From positions 2,838,550 to 2,902,549 of the forward strand of contig NZ_CP090958.1 of NCBI RefSeq assembly GCF_025787225.1: a DNA stretch of 64,000 bases. The letters run 5' to 3'. Position numbers and translations under genes: made by a program. This stretch comes from Saxibacter everestensis (GTDB lineage Bacteria; Actinomycetota; Actinomycetes; Actinomycetales; Brevibacteriaceae). The notes beneath the pieces were generated by a model, which was given only the letters and a program-made list of their open reading frames with translations, was not told the DNA's origin and did not search any database. Numbering within the stretch: the first letter of the stretch is position 1; every line of letters begins with the position of its first letter. Below are positions 18,991-32,611 of this stretch, in pieces.

Positions 18991-19141
18991 CTGATGCTCC
19001 TTCGCACACTTCTGCATTGAACTCCAAAGCCCTCTTTCGAACACAGGGCACCTATCGAACCTAGCGCCTGCTCCACCCCCTAACGCGATATACACACTGT
19101 CGAAGCGCAGACTTTGACACGCCACGGTGGATAATCGTGAC
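18991..19141. promoter_or_regulatory. Divergent promoter region of the ureohydrolase operon and PucR gene
   Basis: This 151-bp gap holds the ureohydrolase Shine-Dalgarno (GAAGGAG) and must hold both promoters. TTGACA at 19114-19119 on the + strand matches a -35 box, but the nearest AT-rich -10 candidate (GATAAT, 19130-19135) is only 10 bp away, so no promoter is claimed. Confidence 0.4.
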
Positions 19142-20929
19142 ATGGTCAAACTCAGCGATATCGTCGGACGGAAGGACCTGGACCTCGAAGTGGTCTGGCC
19201 ACACCGCACCTCGCTTCGTGACCGATTCCTTGAGCGGAACGTCGACGCGGCGAGCGTCTCGGAGCTCTCCGACCCCGGTCCCTGGCTGCAGGGTTCCGAG
19301 CTTCTGATGACGATCGGCCTGCTGCTGCCGGACAGCGAGGCCGGATGCCGTGACTATCTCCACCGGGTCGCGAAGGCCGGTGCGGCGGCCGTCGCCATCG
19401 GACTTGGCGCCGAACTTCCACATCAGCAGGTGCCGGACCGGCTGATCGAAGCCGCCGCCGCAGTCCGGATTCCGCTGCTCGCCGTGCCGCAGGCAGTGCC
19501 CTTCGTCGCGGTCACGAAGGCGTTCGTCGAGCTGCGCACCGAAGCCGAACGGCGCGGACTCGAATGGGCCCTGCAGGCACAGCGCTCGATCACGGTCGCG
19601 GCAACCAGGCCAGGACCGGTGCAATCCATGGTCAAGGCGTTTTCAACCGCCGCGGCTGCCGACGCGGTCGTGCTCGATGCCGCCGGGCACGTCAGCGCCG
19701 CCCATGGCCCTGGCGCCGGCTCGCTGCCCGAGCTGCTCGGCGGCCAGCTTGCGCGGATGCGAAAGCAGCCCGGTCGCTCTGCTTCGATTGACTTCGACGG
19801 CAAGGTCGTCCGGGAGGTGCACCCGCTCGGCATCGCCCGCCCGCGTGCATGGCTATTGATCCAGCGCGGCACGGCTGATTCCAGCAGATCCGGAGGCGTG
19901 CCAGGCGGCAGCAGTGCGGCCGGCAGCGTGGCGGGCGGCAGCGTGCCAGGCGGCAGCAGTGCGGCCGGCAGCGTGGCGGGCGGCAGCGTGCCAGGCGGCA
20001 GCAGTGCGGGCGGCAGCGTGGATGACGGCGTTCGCGACCGGACCGGCAGCGACTCCGCGCAGCATCGGGTTGTCACCGCGGGACTCATCTCGCTGCTGAG
20101 CCTGGAACTGGAAAGGAGACATGCCGCGCTCGAGGAGGTGTGGCGATCAGGCCGCGATGCGTTCGCCGAACTTGTGAGTTCCACCGTTGACGACGGCGCC
20201 GCGCTTGCGTTGCTTGGCCGAGCCGGGATCAACCCCTTTCCGGTGTTGGCCGGCTCGCACCTCGAATCCGATACCCGGCCGTGGGGCATCTTCGGTCCAC
20301 TCTCCGGACGCCGGGTTCGCGTGCTCGCCCTCAGCCAGCGCGAACCGACTCCAGGACAGCATCATCAGCTGCTGGCCGAAGATCTGGCATCGGAATTCGA
20401 AGGCACTCTGGTGAGTTTCGACCCGGCCGCTGTTTTCCTGCTGATCGCCCATGACGACGCCCTCAGTGACCGACTCACCGACCTGGCCCTGGAGCGGAAC
20501 CTGGCCCTCGGCATCGGCAGCGTACTTCGCCCTGGGGCCGCGAGGGTGTCCTATCAGCAGGCACGGGCCGCGCTGCGGCTCAGCCTGAACTCCGGCCAGG
20601 CCGAAACCGCGGCCGGGGACGCCGACTTCCGCCAGATGCTTGACCTGGTGTCCGCCGAACGACTTGGCGAGTTCGCACTTTCCGTACTCGGCCCGGTAAT
20701 CGCCATCGACGACTCGGACCACTCGATGCTTGCCACGCTTCGCGCCTACATCGACCAGCGCGGCAACCAGGACGCGAGCGCCACGGTCCTCGGAATCCAC
20801 CGGCACACAGTGCGCAACCGGATCGCCCGGATTGAGCGGGCGACCGGCCGTGACCTCGGCGCCCCGGACAGCCGGCTCAACGTGGCGCTCGCCCTGCATG
20901 CCTACGACCATTTCCCGCAGCAAAGCTGA
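19142..20929 (+). CDS. PucR-family transcriptional regulator with a repeat-derived Gly/Ser linker
   Basis: A 595-residue PucR protein: N-terminal PucR domain (about 1-130), a middle GGDEF-like/CdaR region (about 305-480) and the C-terminal HTH ([19 protein letters not shown], about 545-563). Between the first two domains lies a Gly/Ser/Ala/Val linker encoded by a 45-bp tandem repeat. The ATG at 19142 is preferred over a GTG 15 bp upstream; neither has a clear ribosome binding site. PucR proteins respond to nitrogen-rich metabolites, and the divergent ureohydrolase/decarboxylase/symporter operon is its likely target. Confidence 0.88.
19898..20020. repeat. 45-bp tandem repeat, about 2.7 copies, in the PucR coding region
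   Basis: Copies begin at 19898, 19943 and 19988; the first two are identical over 45 bp and the third diverges after about 33 bp. Each codes for a 15-residue Gly/Ser/Ala/Val unit ([15 protein letters not shown]), so copy-number change keeps the frame and only alters linker length. Confidence 0.93.
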
Positions 20930-24167: not shown

Positions 24168-25010
24168 CTAGAACGCTGGAAGTACCTGTCCGTCGGTCCA
24201 CTCTTCCTCGATGAACTTCTTCACTTCGTCGGAGTGCAACAGCTCGTCAAGCTTCTTGAGCGATTCATTGTTCTCGTCGCCGGCGCGAGCCGCGAGGAAG
24301 TTGGCGTACGGGTTGTCTTCTGCCTCTTCCACCAGGACGCCATCCTTGCTGGGTGCCAGGCCAGCCTCAAGGGCGAAGTTTCCGTTGATCACGGAAGCGT
24401 CGACGTCATCGAGGGTGCGAGCCAGCTGCGCGGCGTCCGCCTCGACGAACTCCAGGTGCTTCGGGTTGTCCTTGACGTCGTTGATCGTGGCGTTGACGAT
24501 GTCCTTGTCTTCGGCCAGCGTGATTACGCCCGCCTTGACCAGCAGGTCGAGCGCGCGTCCCTGGTTGGAAGGGTCGTTATTGATGCCGATCTTGGCACCG
24601 TCCTTCAGCTCCGAGATGTCCTTTATCGACTTCGAGTAGAGAGCGAACGGCTCAAGGTGTACACCCTTGAAGTGAGCCAGTTCATAGCCCTGACCTTGCA
24701 CCTCGGACTCGTAGTACGGCAGGTGCTGGAAGTAGTTCGCATCCAGGTCGCCATCGACGAGCGCCTTGTTCGGGGCTGTGTAGTCGGTGTACTCCTTGAT
24801 GTCGAGCTTCAGCCCGGCGTCCTCGGCGAGGTTGTCGTTGACGAACTTGAGGATGTCGCCGTGCGGCACTGGCGAGACGCCGACTGTCAGGGTTGTGACG
24901 CCGCTTGCTTCCTGGCCGACCTCGGCCTTGTCGTCAGGCACGAGGCCACAGGAACTGAGGGCGAGTGCTGCAGCGGTGGTAACCGCGAAAAGCGCTGGGA
25001 TCTTGCGCAT
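24168..25010 (-). CDS. metQ: Methionine ABC transporter substrate-binding lipoprotein
   Basis: A 280-residue NlpA/MetQ-family protein. A signal peptide with lipobox LSSC puts the lipid-modified cysteine at residue 21. The mature domain keeps family features such as DYTAPNKALVDGDLDANYFQH and IGINNDPSNQGRALDLL. It captures methionine outside the membrane for MetNI. It is the third gene of metNIQ, 180 bp after metI. Confidence 0.93.
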   Translation of the reverse strand: MRKIPALFAVTTAAALALSSCGLVPDDKAEVGQEASGVTTLTVGVSPVPHGDILKFVNDNLAEDAGLKLDIKEYTDYTAPNKALVDGDLDANYFQHLPYYESEVQGQGYELAHFKGVHLEPFALYSKSIKDISELKDGAKIGINNDPSNQGRALDLLVKAGVITLAEDKDIVNATINDVKDNPKHLEFVEADAAQLARTLDDVDASVINGNFALEAGLAPSKDGVLVEEAEDNPYANFLAARAGDENNESLKKLDELLHSDEVKKFIEEEWTDGQVLPAF

Positions 25011-25082
25011 TGGTGTTTCCTTTCGAGAATGATTTCCTACCCGGTCTACCCGGACTAACCGGATGCCGGTCGTAGAAAAGTC

Positions 25083-25140
25083 GTGGTGTGTAACAAAGAG
25101 GTGTGTAACTAAGAGGTGTGCAACAAGCGGTGTGTTGCGA
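25083..25140. repeat. 14-15-bp tandem repeat, four copies, between metI and metQ
   Basis: Units begin at 25083, 25098, 25113 and 25127 with the core g(a/t/c)ggtgtgtaac, degenerating toward the metI side. They lie in the intra-operon gap. Confidence 0.85.
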
Positions 25141-25190
25141 ACGCGGCTTCGCAGGCCGGCAGCCAGGCTGACCCTGCCCGGGGCACGGGC

Positions 25191-25907
25191 TCAGCGATGA
25201 TCGATCAGCCGGGCGATCCGGTCGCCAAAGAACTGCACGATCGCGACGAGCGCAACAAGCAACACGATGCAGACAATCATCACGTCGCCCTGATAGCGCT
25301 GGTATCCGTAGGAGATCGCCAAGGCACCGAGACCGCCGCCGCCTACCGCTCCCGCCATTGCGGTGTAGGCGATCAAGGTGACGATTGTGATGGTCAACCC
25401 GCCCACGATGCCCGGCCTGGCTTCCTTGTAGAGCACGTCGCGGATTATCTGCCTTTTGCTGGCCCCCATCATCTGGGCGGCCTCGACTTTTCCGAGCCCG
25501 ACCTCGCGCAGCGCATTTTCGACCAGCCTGGCGAAGAACGGAATAGCGCCGACGCTGAGCGGGACGGCGGCTGCGTACCAACCGAGCGCGGTGTCCACCA
25601 TGAATCGGGTGAACGGAATCAGCGCGATCATCAGGATGATGAACGGGATCGACCGGCCAATGTCAATGATCAGGCTGAGCATCCGGTAGACGGCGACCTG
25701 CGGCGAAAGACCCTTCGGACTGGTGACGTGCAACCAGATTCCAAGCGGCAGCCCGAGCAGGGCTGCGACTATCGAGGCGACGACCGTCATGTAGATGGTC
25801 TCGAGGGTCGCGGGCAGCACCTGGTCCTGGATGACCGGGTTGTTGAACCACTGCGGGTCCTTCGCTGCGGCCAGGATGGCCGAGACACCTGTCAGTTCGG
25901 CGTTCAT
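25191..25907 (-). CDS. metI: Methionine ABC transporter permease
   Basis: A 238-residue permease with five to six membrane helices and the EAA-type loop EVGLGKVEAAQMMGASKRQII that contacts the ATPase. It forms the methionine channel with MetN. Its ATG overlaps the metN stop by 4 bp (ATGA), so translation is coupled. Confidence 0.95.
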   Translation of the reverse strand: MNAELTGVSAILAAAKDPQWFNNPVIQDQVLPATLETIYMTVVASIVAALLGLPLGIWLHVTSPKGLSPQVAVYRMLSLIIDIGRSIPFIILMIALIPFTRFMVDTALGWYAAAVPLSVGAIPFFARLVENALREVGLGKVEAAQMMGASKRQIIRDVLYKEARPGIVGGLTITIVTLIAYTAMAGAVGGGGLGALAISYGYQRYQGDVMIVCIVLLVALVAIVQFFGDRIARLIDHR

Positions 25908-26881
25908 GCCACCACCTCCGCGTATACGCCGGCCCTGGTCAACAGCTCGATGATCTGCCCGGAGTCGTGACTGTCACTCACCTCGAGCTGCAGGCGGCCG
26001 ACCCGGCGACCGCCCACTGTTTCGATGGTTCCGGCAGCGATATCGGCGCCGACACCGGCATCGGCAAGCAACGCCAGCAGTTTCGTGGCCGACGGGGTGT
26101 CCTCGGTGGATCCCAGACCTACCTCTACGAGGCGCATTCGTTCACCGACCGGAAGCGGGGGCAACGGAATGAGCTCCTTGCTCAGCGTGGAGCCGGAGTG
26201 GGCCAGCACCTCGACCAGTGAGCCGGATTCTGCAATCTTTCCGTTCTCCAGCAGGGTAACCGAGTCGCAGACCTCACGGACGACGCTCATCTCATGGGTG
26301 ATGATCAGCACGGTGATATTGAGCCGGTCACGCAGGTCCCGGATCAGGGACAGAATCTGCCGGGTGGTTCCTGAGTCCAGTGCGGAAGTCGGCTCGTCAC
26401 AGAGCAGGACGGCCGGCTCGGCGGCGAGCGCCCTGGCGATTCCGACCCGCTGTTTCTGACCGCCGGAAAGCTGCGCTGGGTAGTTCCCGGCGCGATCGCG
26501 CAGGCCGACAAGGTCGAGGAGCTCGCGAACTCTGGCGTCGCGCTGCTTTTTCGGAACGCCGGCCACCTCCAGTGGGTGGGCGATATTGCCTGCCGCAGTG
26601 CGGGAGTCGAGCAGATTGACGTGCTGGAAGACCATGCCGATCCTGCGGCGCGCTACCCGGAGCTTCTCGCCTGTCAGTCCCGACACTTCCTGCCCGTCGA
26701 TCTCGACCGAGCCCTCGCTGGGCTTTTCCAAGGCAGTGAGGCAGCGGATCAAGGTTGATTTTCCGGCACCGGAACGTCCGACGATGCCGTGGATTTCACC
26801 TGCGGGAACGTGCAGATCGATGCCGTCAAGCGCGACGACATCGCCTGCGAATTTTTTGCGCAGGCCGGTCAGAGTAATCAT
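25904..26881 (-). CDS. metN: Methionine ABC transporter ATP-binding protein
   Basis: A 325-residue ATPase: Walker A GRSGAGKST (about 35-43), signature LSGGQKQRVGIARAL, Walker B LLCDEPTSALD and the H-loop ITHEM. The C-terminal ~90 residues form the NIL/ACT domain that senses intracellular methionine and inhibits transport. It is the first gene of the operon; the structured 5' region is described separately. Confidence 0.95.
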   Translation of the reverse strand: MITLTGLRKKFAGDVVALDGIDLHVPAGEIHGIVGRSGAGKSTLIRCLTALEKPSEGSVEIDGQEVSGLTGEKLRVARRRIGMVFQHVNLLDSRTAAGNIAHPLEVAGVPKKQRDARVRELLDLVGLRDRAGNYPAQLSGGQKQRVGIARALAAEPAVLLCDEPTSALDSGTTRQILSLIRDLRDRLNITVLIITHEMSVVREVCDSVTLLENGKIAESGSLVEVLAHSGSTLSKELIPLPPLPVGERMRLVEVGLGSTEDTPSATKLLALLADAGVGADIAAGTIETVGGRRVGRLQLEVSDSHDSGQIIELLTRAGVYAEVVA

Positions 26882-27172
26882 GTCTTCTCCGGGCGTGTGC
26901 CGCGAAACACCAGATGAGGCGCCGCGTGAATTTGGCCAGACATTTCATCACCGCTGGCACGACGTTCCAGTGTGGCATCTCGTGGCCACCCGCCGCATTT
27001 TCACCGGGTCGAATATGACGATTTATGACCGTCGCGTGGCACAGCTCACGAAAACCTGCTCACGACAGCGTGAGGCAGTTCACGAAAGTACGCCCTCGAT
27101 TACTGCCGGGCGGCAAATTCTCCGCATGGTCCGGGGTCGATGCATAGACTGATCACGGACAAGCGGAGGGTA
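26882..27172 (-). promoter_or_regulatory. metN leader / divergent intergenic region
   Basis: This 291-bp gap lies between metN (minus) and a hydrolase gene (plus). On the minus strand, within ~90 nt of metN, GTGGC-N8-GCCAC and CTGG-N9-CCAG form two adjacent small hairpins. Further up, TCACGA occurs at 27046, 27060 and 27080 with an opposing CGTGAG at 27069. These could be a structured leader and regulator sites. I see no match to a SAM riboswitch core. Confidence 0.4.
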
Positions 27173-30769: not shown

Positions 30770-31405
30770 ATGCGCCTGCACGTTGCCGATCACCCGCTGA
30801 TTGCCCACAAACTGTCCGTACTTCGCAGCAAGGACACCGATTCCCCGACGTTCCGTCGGCTTGCCGAGGAACTCGTCACCCTGTTGGCGTACGAGGCGAC
30901 ACGCGACGTACGGGTTGAGCCGAAACAAATCCAGACCCCCGTCACCGAGATGACCGGCGTCGCCATTTCGTCGCCACGGCCCCTTGTGGTGCCGATCCTG
31001 CGCGCCGGCCTAGGCATGCTCGAAGGCATGACCCGCCTGATTCCCACCGCTGAGGTCGGATTTCTCGGCATGGTCCGCGATGAGCAGACGCTCGAGGCCA
31101 CGACATACGCCGAACGGCTGCCCGACGACCTCTCCGGTCGGCAGATCTTCGTGCTGGACCCGATGCTGGCGACCGGCGGCACACTGGCCGTCGCCATCCA
31201 GTTCCTGCTCGACCGCGGCGCGCGCGATGTCGTCGCGGTCTGCCTGCTCGCGGCCCCCGAAGGCGTGCGGCTGATCGAGCACAAGTTCGACGCCCGGGCC
31301 AACGTGACCATCGTTACAGCAGCGCTCGACGAACGCCTGGACGAAAACGGCTACATCGTCCCCGGCCTCGGCGACGCCGGCGACCGCCTGTACGGCGTGG
31401 TCTGA
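30770..31405 (+). CDS. upp: Uracil phosphoribosyltransferase
   Basis: A 211-residue enzyme making UMP from uracil and PRPP. The PRPP loop [15 protein letters not shown] (about 129-143), [10 protein letters not shown] and the C-terminal uracil motif [15 protein letters not shown] are intact. It is a single gene after the frameshifted ABC ATPase (divergent). Its last ~40 bp are repeated twice in tandem just downstream. Confidence 0.96.
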
Positions 31406-31481
31406 CCGCTTGTCTCGGCGACGCCGGTGACCGCCTGTACGGCGACGCCGGTGACCGCCTGTACGGCGTGGTCTGACCGCT
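31367..31481. repeat. Tandem duplication of the upp 3' end
   Basis: The segment ctcggcgacgccgg... that ends upp (31367-31410) recurs partly at 31414-31440 and nearly completely at 31441-31481, including the stop codon and the following bases, with one shared c-to-t difference. Confidence 0.92.
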
Positions 31482-31552
31482 GCTGGTGGCAATCCGACCG
31501 GCGTAAGTCGCGTCACAAATCGTCACATTCATTCTCAGATTGTGACCAAGTG

Positions 31553-31581
31553 TTGCAGCGATCCGTGAAATAGCTAAGAAT
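31553..31581 (+). promoter_or_regulatory. Promoter of the poly-cysteine leader
   Basis: TTGCAG (31553-31558) and TAAGAA(T) (31575-31581) are spaced 16-17 bp. A start site 7 nt later would coincide with the GTG at 31588, giving a leaderless transcript. Upstream, GTCACA at 31512 and 31522 with an opposing TGTGAC at 31541 may be a regulator site. Confidence 0.6.
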
Positions 31582-31587
31582 CGTCTC

Positions 31588-31662
31588 GTGCCTACCAAAC
31601 AACAGATGTCCAAGATGCCGCGCGTGATGCCCAGCGCCTGCGGCTGCTGTTGTTGTCTTTAA
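31588..31662 (+). CDS. Cys-rich leaderless leader peptide (candidate cysteine attenuator)
   Basis: A 24-codon frame starting at GTG encodes VPTKQQMSKMPRVMPSACGCCCCL and stops at TAA 31660. Five of the last seven residues are Cys, four in a row. A promoter ends about 7 nt before the GTG, so translation likely starts at the 5' end of the mRNA. In mycobacteria, leaderless short frames ending in poly-Cys are known cysteine-responsive attenuators: ribosome stalling at Cys codons changes downstream expression. Here the Cys codons form the 5' arm of a hairpin (31635-31646 with 31685-31696). The downstream gene is a winged-helix regulator, not an obvious cysteine enzyme. Peptide and structure are seen; mechanism is inferred. 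Confidence 0.75.
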   Translation: MPTKQQMSKMPRVMPSACGCCCCL

Positions 31663-31730
31663 GAACTGACTCAACAAGCTGTGCCAGCCGCAGGCGGCAG
31701 GCGATGAAGGCAGCGATCCCCACAGTTTTT
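31635..31730 (+). promoter_or_regulatory. Attenuator-like structure after the poly-Cys leader
   Basis: CGCCTGCGGCTG (31635-31646, covering the first Cys codons) and CAGCCGCAGGCG (31685-31696) form a perfect 12-bp stem. An alternative outer pair CTGTG (31679-31683) and CACAG (31721-31725) encloses the 3' arm and is followed by TTTTT (31726-31730). The two cannot form together, which is the logic of attenuation. The alternative terminator stem is short with a large interior. Confidence 0.6.
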
Positions 31731-31734
31731 CGGT

Positions 31735-31754
31735 CCACCGGCGTTATCCGGTGG
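31735..31754 (+). promoter_or_regulatory. Hairpin upstream of the winged-helix gene
   Basis: CCACCGG-cgttat-CCGGTGG is a perfect 7-bp stem 20 bp before the start codon and 10 bp before its Shine-Dalgarno. It could tune translation or protect the 5' end. Confidence 0.5.
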
Positions 31755-31774
31755 CAAGACCTTGGAGTATCACA

Positions 31775-32611
31775 ATGGGCGGAAACAGCTCGGCAAACGC
31801 AGTAAGTTCTCCGGTTCCATCCCGTAGGGGATGGCATTCGGCCGGTCAGGGAGTCTCCGCGAAGCGCCTCGGCGCACGCGCCCTTTCACCAGTGTCCGAC
31901 GACACCACAACCCGGACCTACGGTCCGGAAGGCGTCACGCCGTCGGCTCGTGCCGCGCGCGGAATCATTCTCTACCTCGGACTCGATGAAGCCAAGGCCT
32001 CGGCAGATGGCACAAACCTGGTGGAGATCGCCGAGAAGCTGCAGCGGTATGCCCGGCAGCTCGCTTCACGCGCCGACACCCAGGCAGTTGTCGCCCTAGC
32101 TCCTGAGGGCCCGAATCGCGATCTCGACGCAGTCCGCGCGGTCGCCGCGGGATCACCGGCCGCCACAGGGCAGACCGCATCGGCGCATGGTCCGGTACGG
32201 AGCCGCGTTCCCAGCCGCGTTCACGCACCGGGCACCCGCCAGCAGCCGGCGACAGCTACGCCCAACCGCGGCAGCATTCCGGAGGCGGGACTGCTTATCG
32301 ACGCCCCGCGTCGCGAAGTCCATATCGATGGTGCCCTGAGCAGCCTGACCTACAAGGAATTCGACCTGCTCGCCTTCCTGGTCTCCCGCGAGGACCGGAC
32401 TGTGAGCCGGTCCGAACTGATCGCCGAGCTCTGGTCCAACGGCCCGGCCGAAGAAGTGCCGACCGAACGCACTGTCGACGTGCATATCCGTCGTCTGCGT
32501 ACAAAGCTGGGCCGCTACTCCAGCATCGTTCGCACGATTCGGGGCGGCGGCTACCGTTACGACGATCATCCCGATGTCGTCGTCTGGCAGGCAATCGCCC
32601 GCCCGGTGTAG
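31775..32611 (+). CDS. Winged-helix (OmpR/PhoB-type DNA-binding) orphan regulator
   Basis: A 278-residue protein. The C-terminal ~95 residues are a Trans_reg_C winged helix (LTYKEFDLLAFLVSR, TERTVDVHIRRLRTKLG, IRTIRGGGYRY). The N-terminal ~170 residues are not a response-regulator receiver: no phosphorylatable Asp context is visible, and a Pro/Ala/Arg-rich segment links the halves. ATG 31775 has GGAG 7 nt upstream. The gene stands alone behind a poly-cysteine leader and attenuator-like hairpins, suggesting its level follows cysteine or sulfur supply. Its targets are unknown. Confidence 0.85.
   Translation: MGGNSSANAVSSPVPSRRGWHSAGQGVSAKRLGARALSPVSDDTTTRTYGPEGVTPSARAARGIILYLGLDEAKASADGTNLVEIAEKLQRYARQLASRADTQAVVALAPEGPNRDLDAVRAVAAGSPAATGQTASAHGPVRSRVPSRVHAPGTRQQPATATPNRGSIPEAGLLIDAPRREVHIDGALSSLTYKEFDLLAFLVSREDRTVSRSELIAELWSNGPAEEVPTERTVDVHIRRLRTKLGRYSSIVRTIRGGGYRYDDHPDVVVWQAIARPV

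Follow-up and report, generated by a model that had tools for sequence, protein, structure and literature searches.

A predicted sulfur-amino-acid leader peptide preceding a candidate sulfur regulator of the orphan winged-helix type in Saxibacter everestensis and related Micrococcales

In Bacillus, the leader peptide rtpLP reportedly controls anti-TRAP, and there too a leader peptide with amino-acid codons sets the level of a regulatory protein rather than of an enzyme; it differs from the case described here in having tryptophan codons, in being led by a Shine-Dalgarno sequence and in controlling an inhibitor of an RNA-binding protein. Winged helices of the OmpR/PhoB type usually act on direct-repeat operators spaced 10-11 bp apart. 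The cys leader peptides described in 2005 (PMC1262725) lie before genes of biosynthesis. They are short, carry runs of Cys codons close to the stop and lack a clear terminator; no conserved hairpin emerged from that study, which also reports no element for methionine operons. In mycobacteria, leaderless polycysteine short ORFs (Canestrari et al. 2020, doi 10.1111/mmi.14498) precede sulfur genes (cited in PMC9094748 and PMC13236596). The locus analysed here resembles the mycobacterial attenuators, as presented there, in its predicted leaderless frame, in the consecutive Cys codons near the stop, in the sulfur-related unit that follows and in the proposed stalling. It differs from those accounts in two respects: the gene directly after the leader encodes a transcription factor, linked to sulfur through its own predicted regulon, and not a sulfur-metabolism gene, and the leader peptides also hold many Met codons, unlike the mycobacterial frames.

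A probably leaderless Cys- and Met-rich frame

The window, a stretch of 64,000 nucleotides from the S. everestensis genome (a single 4.05-Mb contig), was read directly and compared with a family set of 60 genomes in four genera, of which Brevibacterium is the largest. As the earlier note had reported from the sequence, the window contains a 24-codon GTG frame encoding VPTKQQMSKMPRVMPSACGCCCCL, which ends in CGCCCCL and stops at 31660-31662 (Table 1); besides its five Cys codons it has three internal Met codons. The note had also placed the transcript start at the GTG, and the geometry agrees with this: TTGCAG and AAGAAT are separated by a 17-nt spacer and another 6 nt lead to the GTG, so that +1 at the GTG is the expected arrangement, and the spacing is common to relatives, most of those sampled having TTGNNN 35-37 nt 5' of the leader start codon. 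A strict consensus promoter scan found no promoter at the leader. Upstream of the locus, a tandem repeat (31369-31468, period 24, about four copies) is made of the upp 3' end and runs past the upp stop codon.

Table 1. Coordinates of the features discussed, numbered from the first nucleotide of the window
Feature	Position	Strand	Basis or remark
metN, metI, metQ (methionine ABC transporter)	24168..26881	-	predicted regulon member
Second perfect operator copy, upstream of metNIQ	27014..27029	-	consensus scan of genome
Predicted operator, tandem GTCAY repeats GTCACAAATCGTCACA	31512..31527	+	-76/-66 from leader start codon; same position in relatives
-35-like element TTGCAG	31553..31558	+	direct reading; spacing common to relatives
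-10-like element AAGAAT	31576..31581	+	inferred promoter; +1 placed at 31588
Leader-peptide frame, predicted leaderless, GTG start	31588..31662	+	kept in 58/60 family genomes
Helix P1, 5' arm, overlapping Cys codons 18 and 20	31635..31646	+	direct reading, shuffles, covariation
Candidate helix P2, 5' arm, 1 nt 5' of P1 3' arm	31676..31683	+	p ~0.05, suggestive
Helix P1, 3' arm	31685..31696	+	covariation across family
Candidate helix P2, 3' arm, running into TTTTT at 31726-31730	31721..31728	+	suggestive
Regulator Shine-Dalgarno TTGGAG	31762..31767	+	direct reading
Orphan winged-helix regulator, 278 aa	31775..32611	+	N-terminal domain ~residues 61-131; C-terminal Trans_reg_C

A regulator orthologue was present in all 60 family genomes, and in 58 of them a short frame starts 6-8 nt 3' of a -10 element and ends 5' of the regulator gene, the 6-8 nt spacing not being independent, as the search was anchored on the -10 element. 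Cys codons, on whose presence in close relatives the earlier reading depended, were found in all 50 distinct family peptides, each with at least three Met plus Cys residues; these two amino acids make up 23.5% of the residues in the leader frame across the family, against 12.4% and 1.8% in the other two frames. Runs of Cys near the stop occur in the window (CGCCCCL) and in two other genera (VCCCL and CGCCCCLSIK), while most Brevibacterium leader peptides have merely one or two scattered Cys; in three Brevibacterium species Arg replaces the Cys adjoining helix P1 and the other Cys codons are kept. The frames extend beyond the family: other Micrococcales families have Met/Cys-rich short frames 5' of the regulator orthologue, with ends such as MCCRMCR, CMSVCR or CCRMHA, and examples preceding genes with the same N-terminal domain in further families are MTDTARTLTAREANRTADMMMSARAPMCCRMCR, MSNRSALMAQDTCAMFCCSMAMCMSVCR and VNKNSTAPAAAEHWTSTPAAANMRCCRMHA. 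The NCBIfam models did not match any of the leader peptides. Two small-genome relatives (L050 and L051), whose genomes are without the triple box described below, have no leader frame, and in them the regulator itself seems to begin leaderless. The Cys codons of the earlier proposal hold up, and its specificity is amended: with Met codons present alongside those for Cys, the peptide may sense both amino acids.

These comparisons bear on two other readings of the frame. GC-rich DNA often contains runs of TGC/TGT codons, and a Cys-rich frame could arise as a functionless by-product of a GC-rich hairpin; this genome has 25 four-codon runs, the leader run being the only one outside a called gene. 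Conservation over several families, the codon enrichment and the covariation of the helix contradict this explanation, which we regard as barely credible. The frame might instead be the gene of a small protein with a function of its own, or its product might arrest ribosomes in a sequence-specific way in response to something other than tRNA charging, as C-terminal motifs kept within groups (MCMPCVRGR, MCCRMCR, CCRMHA) would suit. Between groups, however, the peptide sequence varies while the Met/Cys richness, the +1 start and the position are kept, and RNA pairing explains part of the peptide conservation, the conserved residues falling on the P1 arm; we judge a small protein or arrest peptide improbable.

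Pairing in the leader RNA

The perfect 12-bp hairpin noticed earlier was present, CGCCTGCGGCTG pairing with CAGCCGCAGGCG (helix P1, p = 0.016 against shuffled downstream sequence). It had been described as having the Cys codons for one of its arms, which holds for two of the five (31639 and 31645), located inside the 5' arm, and not for the other three (31648-31656), which lie just 3' of it. Alignment of the window with a second genus (CGTCTGTTGTTG/CAGCAGCAGACG) and with Brevibacterium (CGTTCGCGACC/GGTCGCGAACG and variants) revealed double, compensatory changes at several positions. When the outer six pairs were used as the anchor and the inner six were scored, 134 of 162 cells were paired, compared with 131 in the best of 2000 random re-pairings, a comparison whose independence is lowered by sequence kinship. 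In a large Brevibacterium clade, one or two mismatches break P1. A covarying helix overlapping the terminal codons distinguishes these leaders from the earlier cys leader peptides (PMC1262725).

A competing stem followed by TTTTT had also been proposed. The stem exists (AAGCTGTG/CACAGTTT), although it is weak, with 8 bp including wobble pairs and a 37-nt loop, and it is neither called nor conserved as a terminator. In diverse lineages a second helix is found with its 5' arm placed 1-3 nt ahead of the 3' arm of P1; among them are the second genus (GGATGCGCC/GGCGCATCC) and the genus G059 (GCTGCG/CGCAGC), and individual p values are mostly between 0.03 and 0.4. The resulting order of arms, 1-2-3-4 with pairs 1:3 and 2:4, is suggestive of an H-type pseudoknot or of two mutually exclusive helices. 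Folding of the whole leader was mildly more stable than that of shuffled sequences (z -1.56), and neither the window leader nor those of relatives matched an RNA family in Rfam.

In a classical transcription attenuator, Cys starvation would allow an antiterminator to form and block an intrinsic terminator before the regulator gene. A run of TTTTT or TTTTTT after the stem, present in the window and G059, fits this scheme, as does the arm order, which prevents P1 and P2 from coexisting as nested helices. Against it, the intrinsic terminator scan called no terminator in the leader, the putative stem being short with its long loop, no terminator was conserved in relatives, and in Brevibacterium the equivalent stem is not followed by a T run; furthermore, given the arm order, a stalled ribosome would favour the second stem and not prevent it. 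A terminator-type attenuator is not supported, and we give it a low probability. When a ribosome was parked on the Cys codons in the model, the accessibility of the regulator ribosome-binding site increased in only 14 of 56 leaders and decreased in three, an equivocal outcome for sequestration of that site.

The regulator, its predicted operator and regulon

The downstream gene had been described as a transcription factor with an unusual N-terminal half, and the domain searches agree. Its C-terminal domain is Trans_reg_C (PF00486, E 5e-20), with a winged helix-turn-helix modelled at pLDDT values mostly above 90, while the conserved N-terminal domain of about 70 residues, represented by two structure models of moderate confidence, had no Pfam match. 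No receiver domain was matched in the protein. Its sequence places the protein among the OmpR/PhoB-type winged helices, as an orphan whose N-terminal domain is undescribed: it shares with regulators of that type, including the orphan GlnR, the Trans_reg_C domain and predicted operators of direct repeats, spaced by about one helical turn and located 5' of the -35 element, and differs from them in its lack of a receiver domain and in its N-terminal domain. The latter was present in 71 of 297 sampled genomes of the order, including further families; the named relatives are Aquiluna and other Micrococcales, from which the Microbacteriaceae or Micrococcaceae assignment of the further genomes is inferred. 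The literature searched gave no published account of this regulator or of a leader peptide before it. Elsewhere in the window, a PucR-family regulator (19127-20929) has an internal Gly/Ser/Val/Pro repeat tract.

The predicted operator consists of tandem GTCAY repeats spaced 10-11 bp, lying just upstream of the -35 element at -76/-66 or -65/-55/-44 relative to the leader start codon. Across the S. everestensis genome the consensus GTCAYANWTCGTCAYA has two perfect matches, one at the regulator's own promoter and the other upstream of metNIQ. Allowing up to two mismatches gave 26 matches, 22 inside genes and four intergenic, the latter at the own promoter, metNIQ, metY and the mtnK/ARD intergenic region; the box also lies 5' of metK, within the coaBC end. 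The three-repeat pattern found no sulfur site in this genome; the two-repeat pattern finds sulfur sites. In relatives, 50 of 51 metY loci have tandem GTCAY repeats 5' of the gene, invariably on one strand, and triple-repeat boxes occurred in 57 of 60 genomes, the reversed pattern giving few matches. Among 20 sites sampled in relatives, sulfur-related neighbours were cysK, DszC/SfnB-like, SfnB, SfnG, SsuE, MetB-like and homocysteine methyltransferase genes, and others adjoin transporters, CoA ligases and other genes without evident sulfur link. The box directly adjoins the -35 element of the leader promoter in Microbacteriaceae-like genomes, and one of these genomes has a second box 5' of a metY homologue. 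One genus (G059, locus L003) lacks a GTCAY box at its own promoter and at metY and retains the leader peptide and the hairpin.

Two further motifs were seen in the same scans. A recurrent variant repeat, GTCACTACTCNGTCA-N6-GGTCAY, lies beside a protein at one locus (L331), with similar sites in many Brevibacterium. Upstream of the leader frame, four loci of Micrococcaceae-like genomes (L287, L290, L292 and L299) share another conserved motif, TGTCTCA..ATG.GGAC..TTC..ATTGTTACTTGC.

The tandem GTCAY box common to the own promoter and to sulfur genes (metY, metNIQ, mtnK/ARD, metK, cysK) supports what the earlier note had guessed, and makes the reading of the orphan winged-helix protein as a sulfur regulator well supported on sequence grounds. 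The regulator itself, and not another factor, would bind the box, and the position of the box just 5' of the -35 element suggests that it acts as an activator. The link between box and protein is one of co-occurrence, and the box could belong to a different sulfur regulator, with the winged-helix gene as one more target and the leader as a local Cys attenuator. This arrangement is unlikely, since OmpR/PhoB winged helices usually recognise direct repeats spaced 10-11 bp, the box accompanies the regulator gene in different families, and the leader box is the only triple repeat genome-wide in two Microbacteriaceae-like genomes. Consistent with the predicted regulon, metY, metB, metNIQ and the sulfonate genes of Brevibacterium aurantiacum respond jointly to sulfur supply (PMC6706770).

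A proposed leader peptide setting the level of a probable sulfur regulator

Taken together, our analyses suggest, with a probability of roughly 0.7, that expression of a transcription factor with a sulfur regulon is controlled by a sulfur-amino-acid leader peptide. In Brevibacterium and its relatives, ribosomes probably move more slowly along the leader when sulfur amino acids run short, and the level of a so far undescribed master switch for sulfur would be set in this way. With too little charged Cys (or Met) tRNA, the ribosomes would stall on the terminal leader codons and prevent the formation of P1, which would increase the synthesis of the regulator, either because its ribosome-binding site is left accessible or because Rho-dependent termination is prevented; we infer the stalling, its direction and the output step from the arrangement of the leader. 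For the mycobacterial frames, Canestrari and colleagues are said to have proposed that stalled ribosomes free the next ribosome-binding site. The regulator would then bind the GTCAY direct repeats upstream of -35 elements, raising its own transcription and switching on methionine and cysteine synthesis, methionine uptake, methylthioribose salvage and the use of organosulfur compounds. The wider proposal, that a widespread and so far undescribed autoactivating winged-helix regulator is the sulfur master regulator across the Micrococcales, with a leaderless peptide sensing both Met-tRNA and Cys-tRNA and a conserved pseudoknot-like leader RNA without a terminator, is more tentative, and we place it somewhat below even odds.

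Such a unit would combine, under autoregulation, amino-acid attenuation sensed by ribosomes with a DNA-binding master regulator, two forms of control that are mostly treated separately. It would also widen the known range of Cys-codon leader peptides, previously reported from mycobacteria, propionibacteria and bifidobacteria. The predicted operator and regulon are directly testable. For Brevibacterium, whose sulfur volatiles matter in cheese, the regulator would be a named candidate for the factor behind sulfur control.
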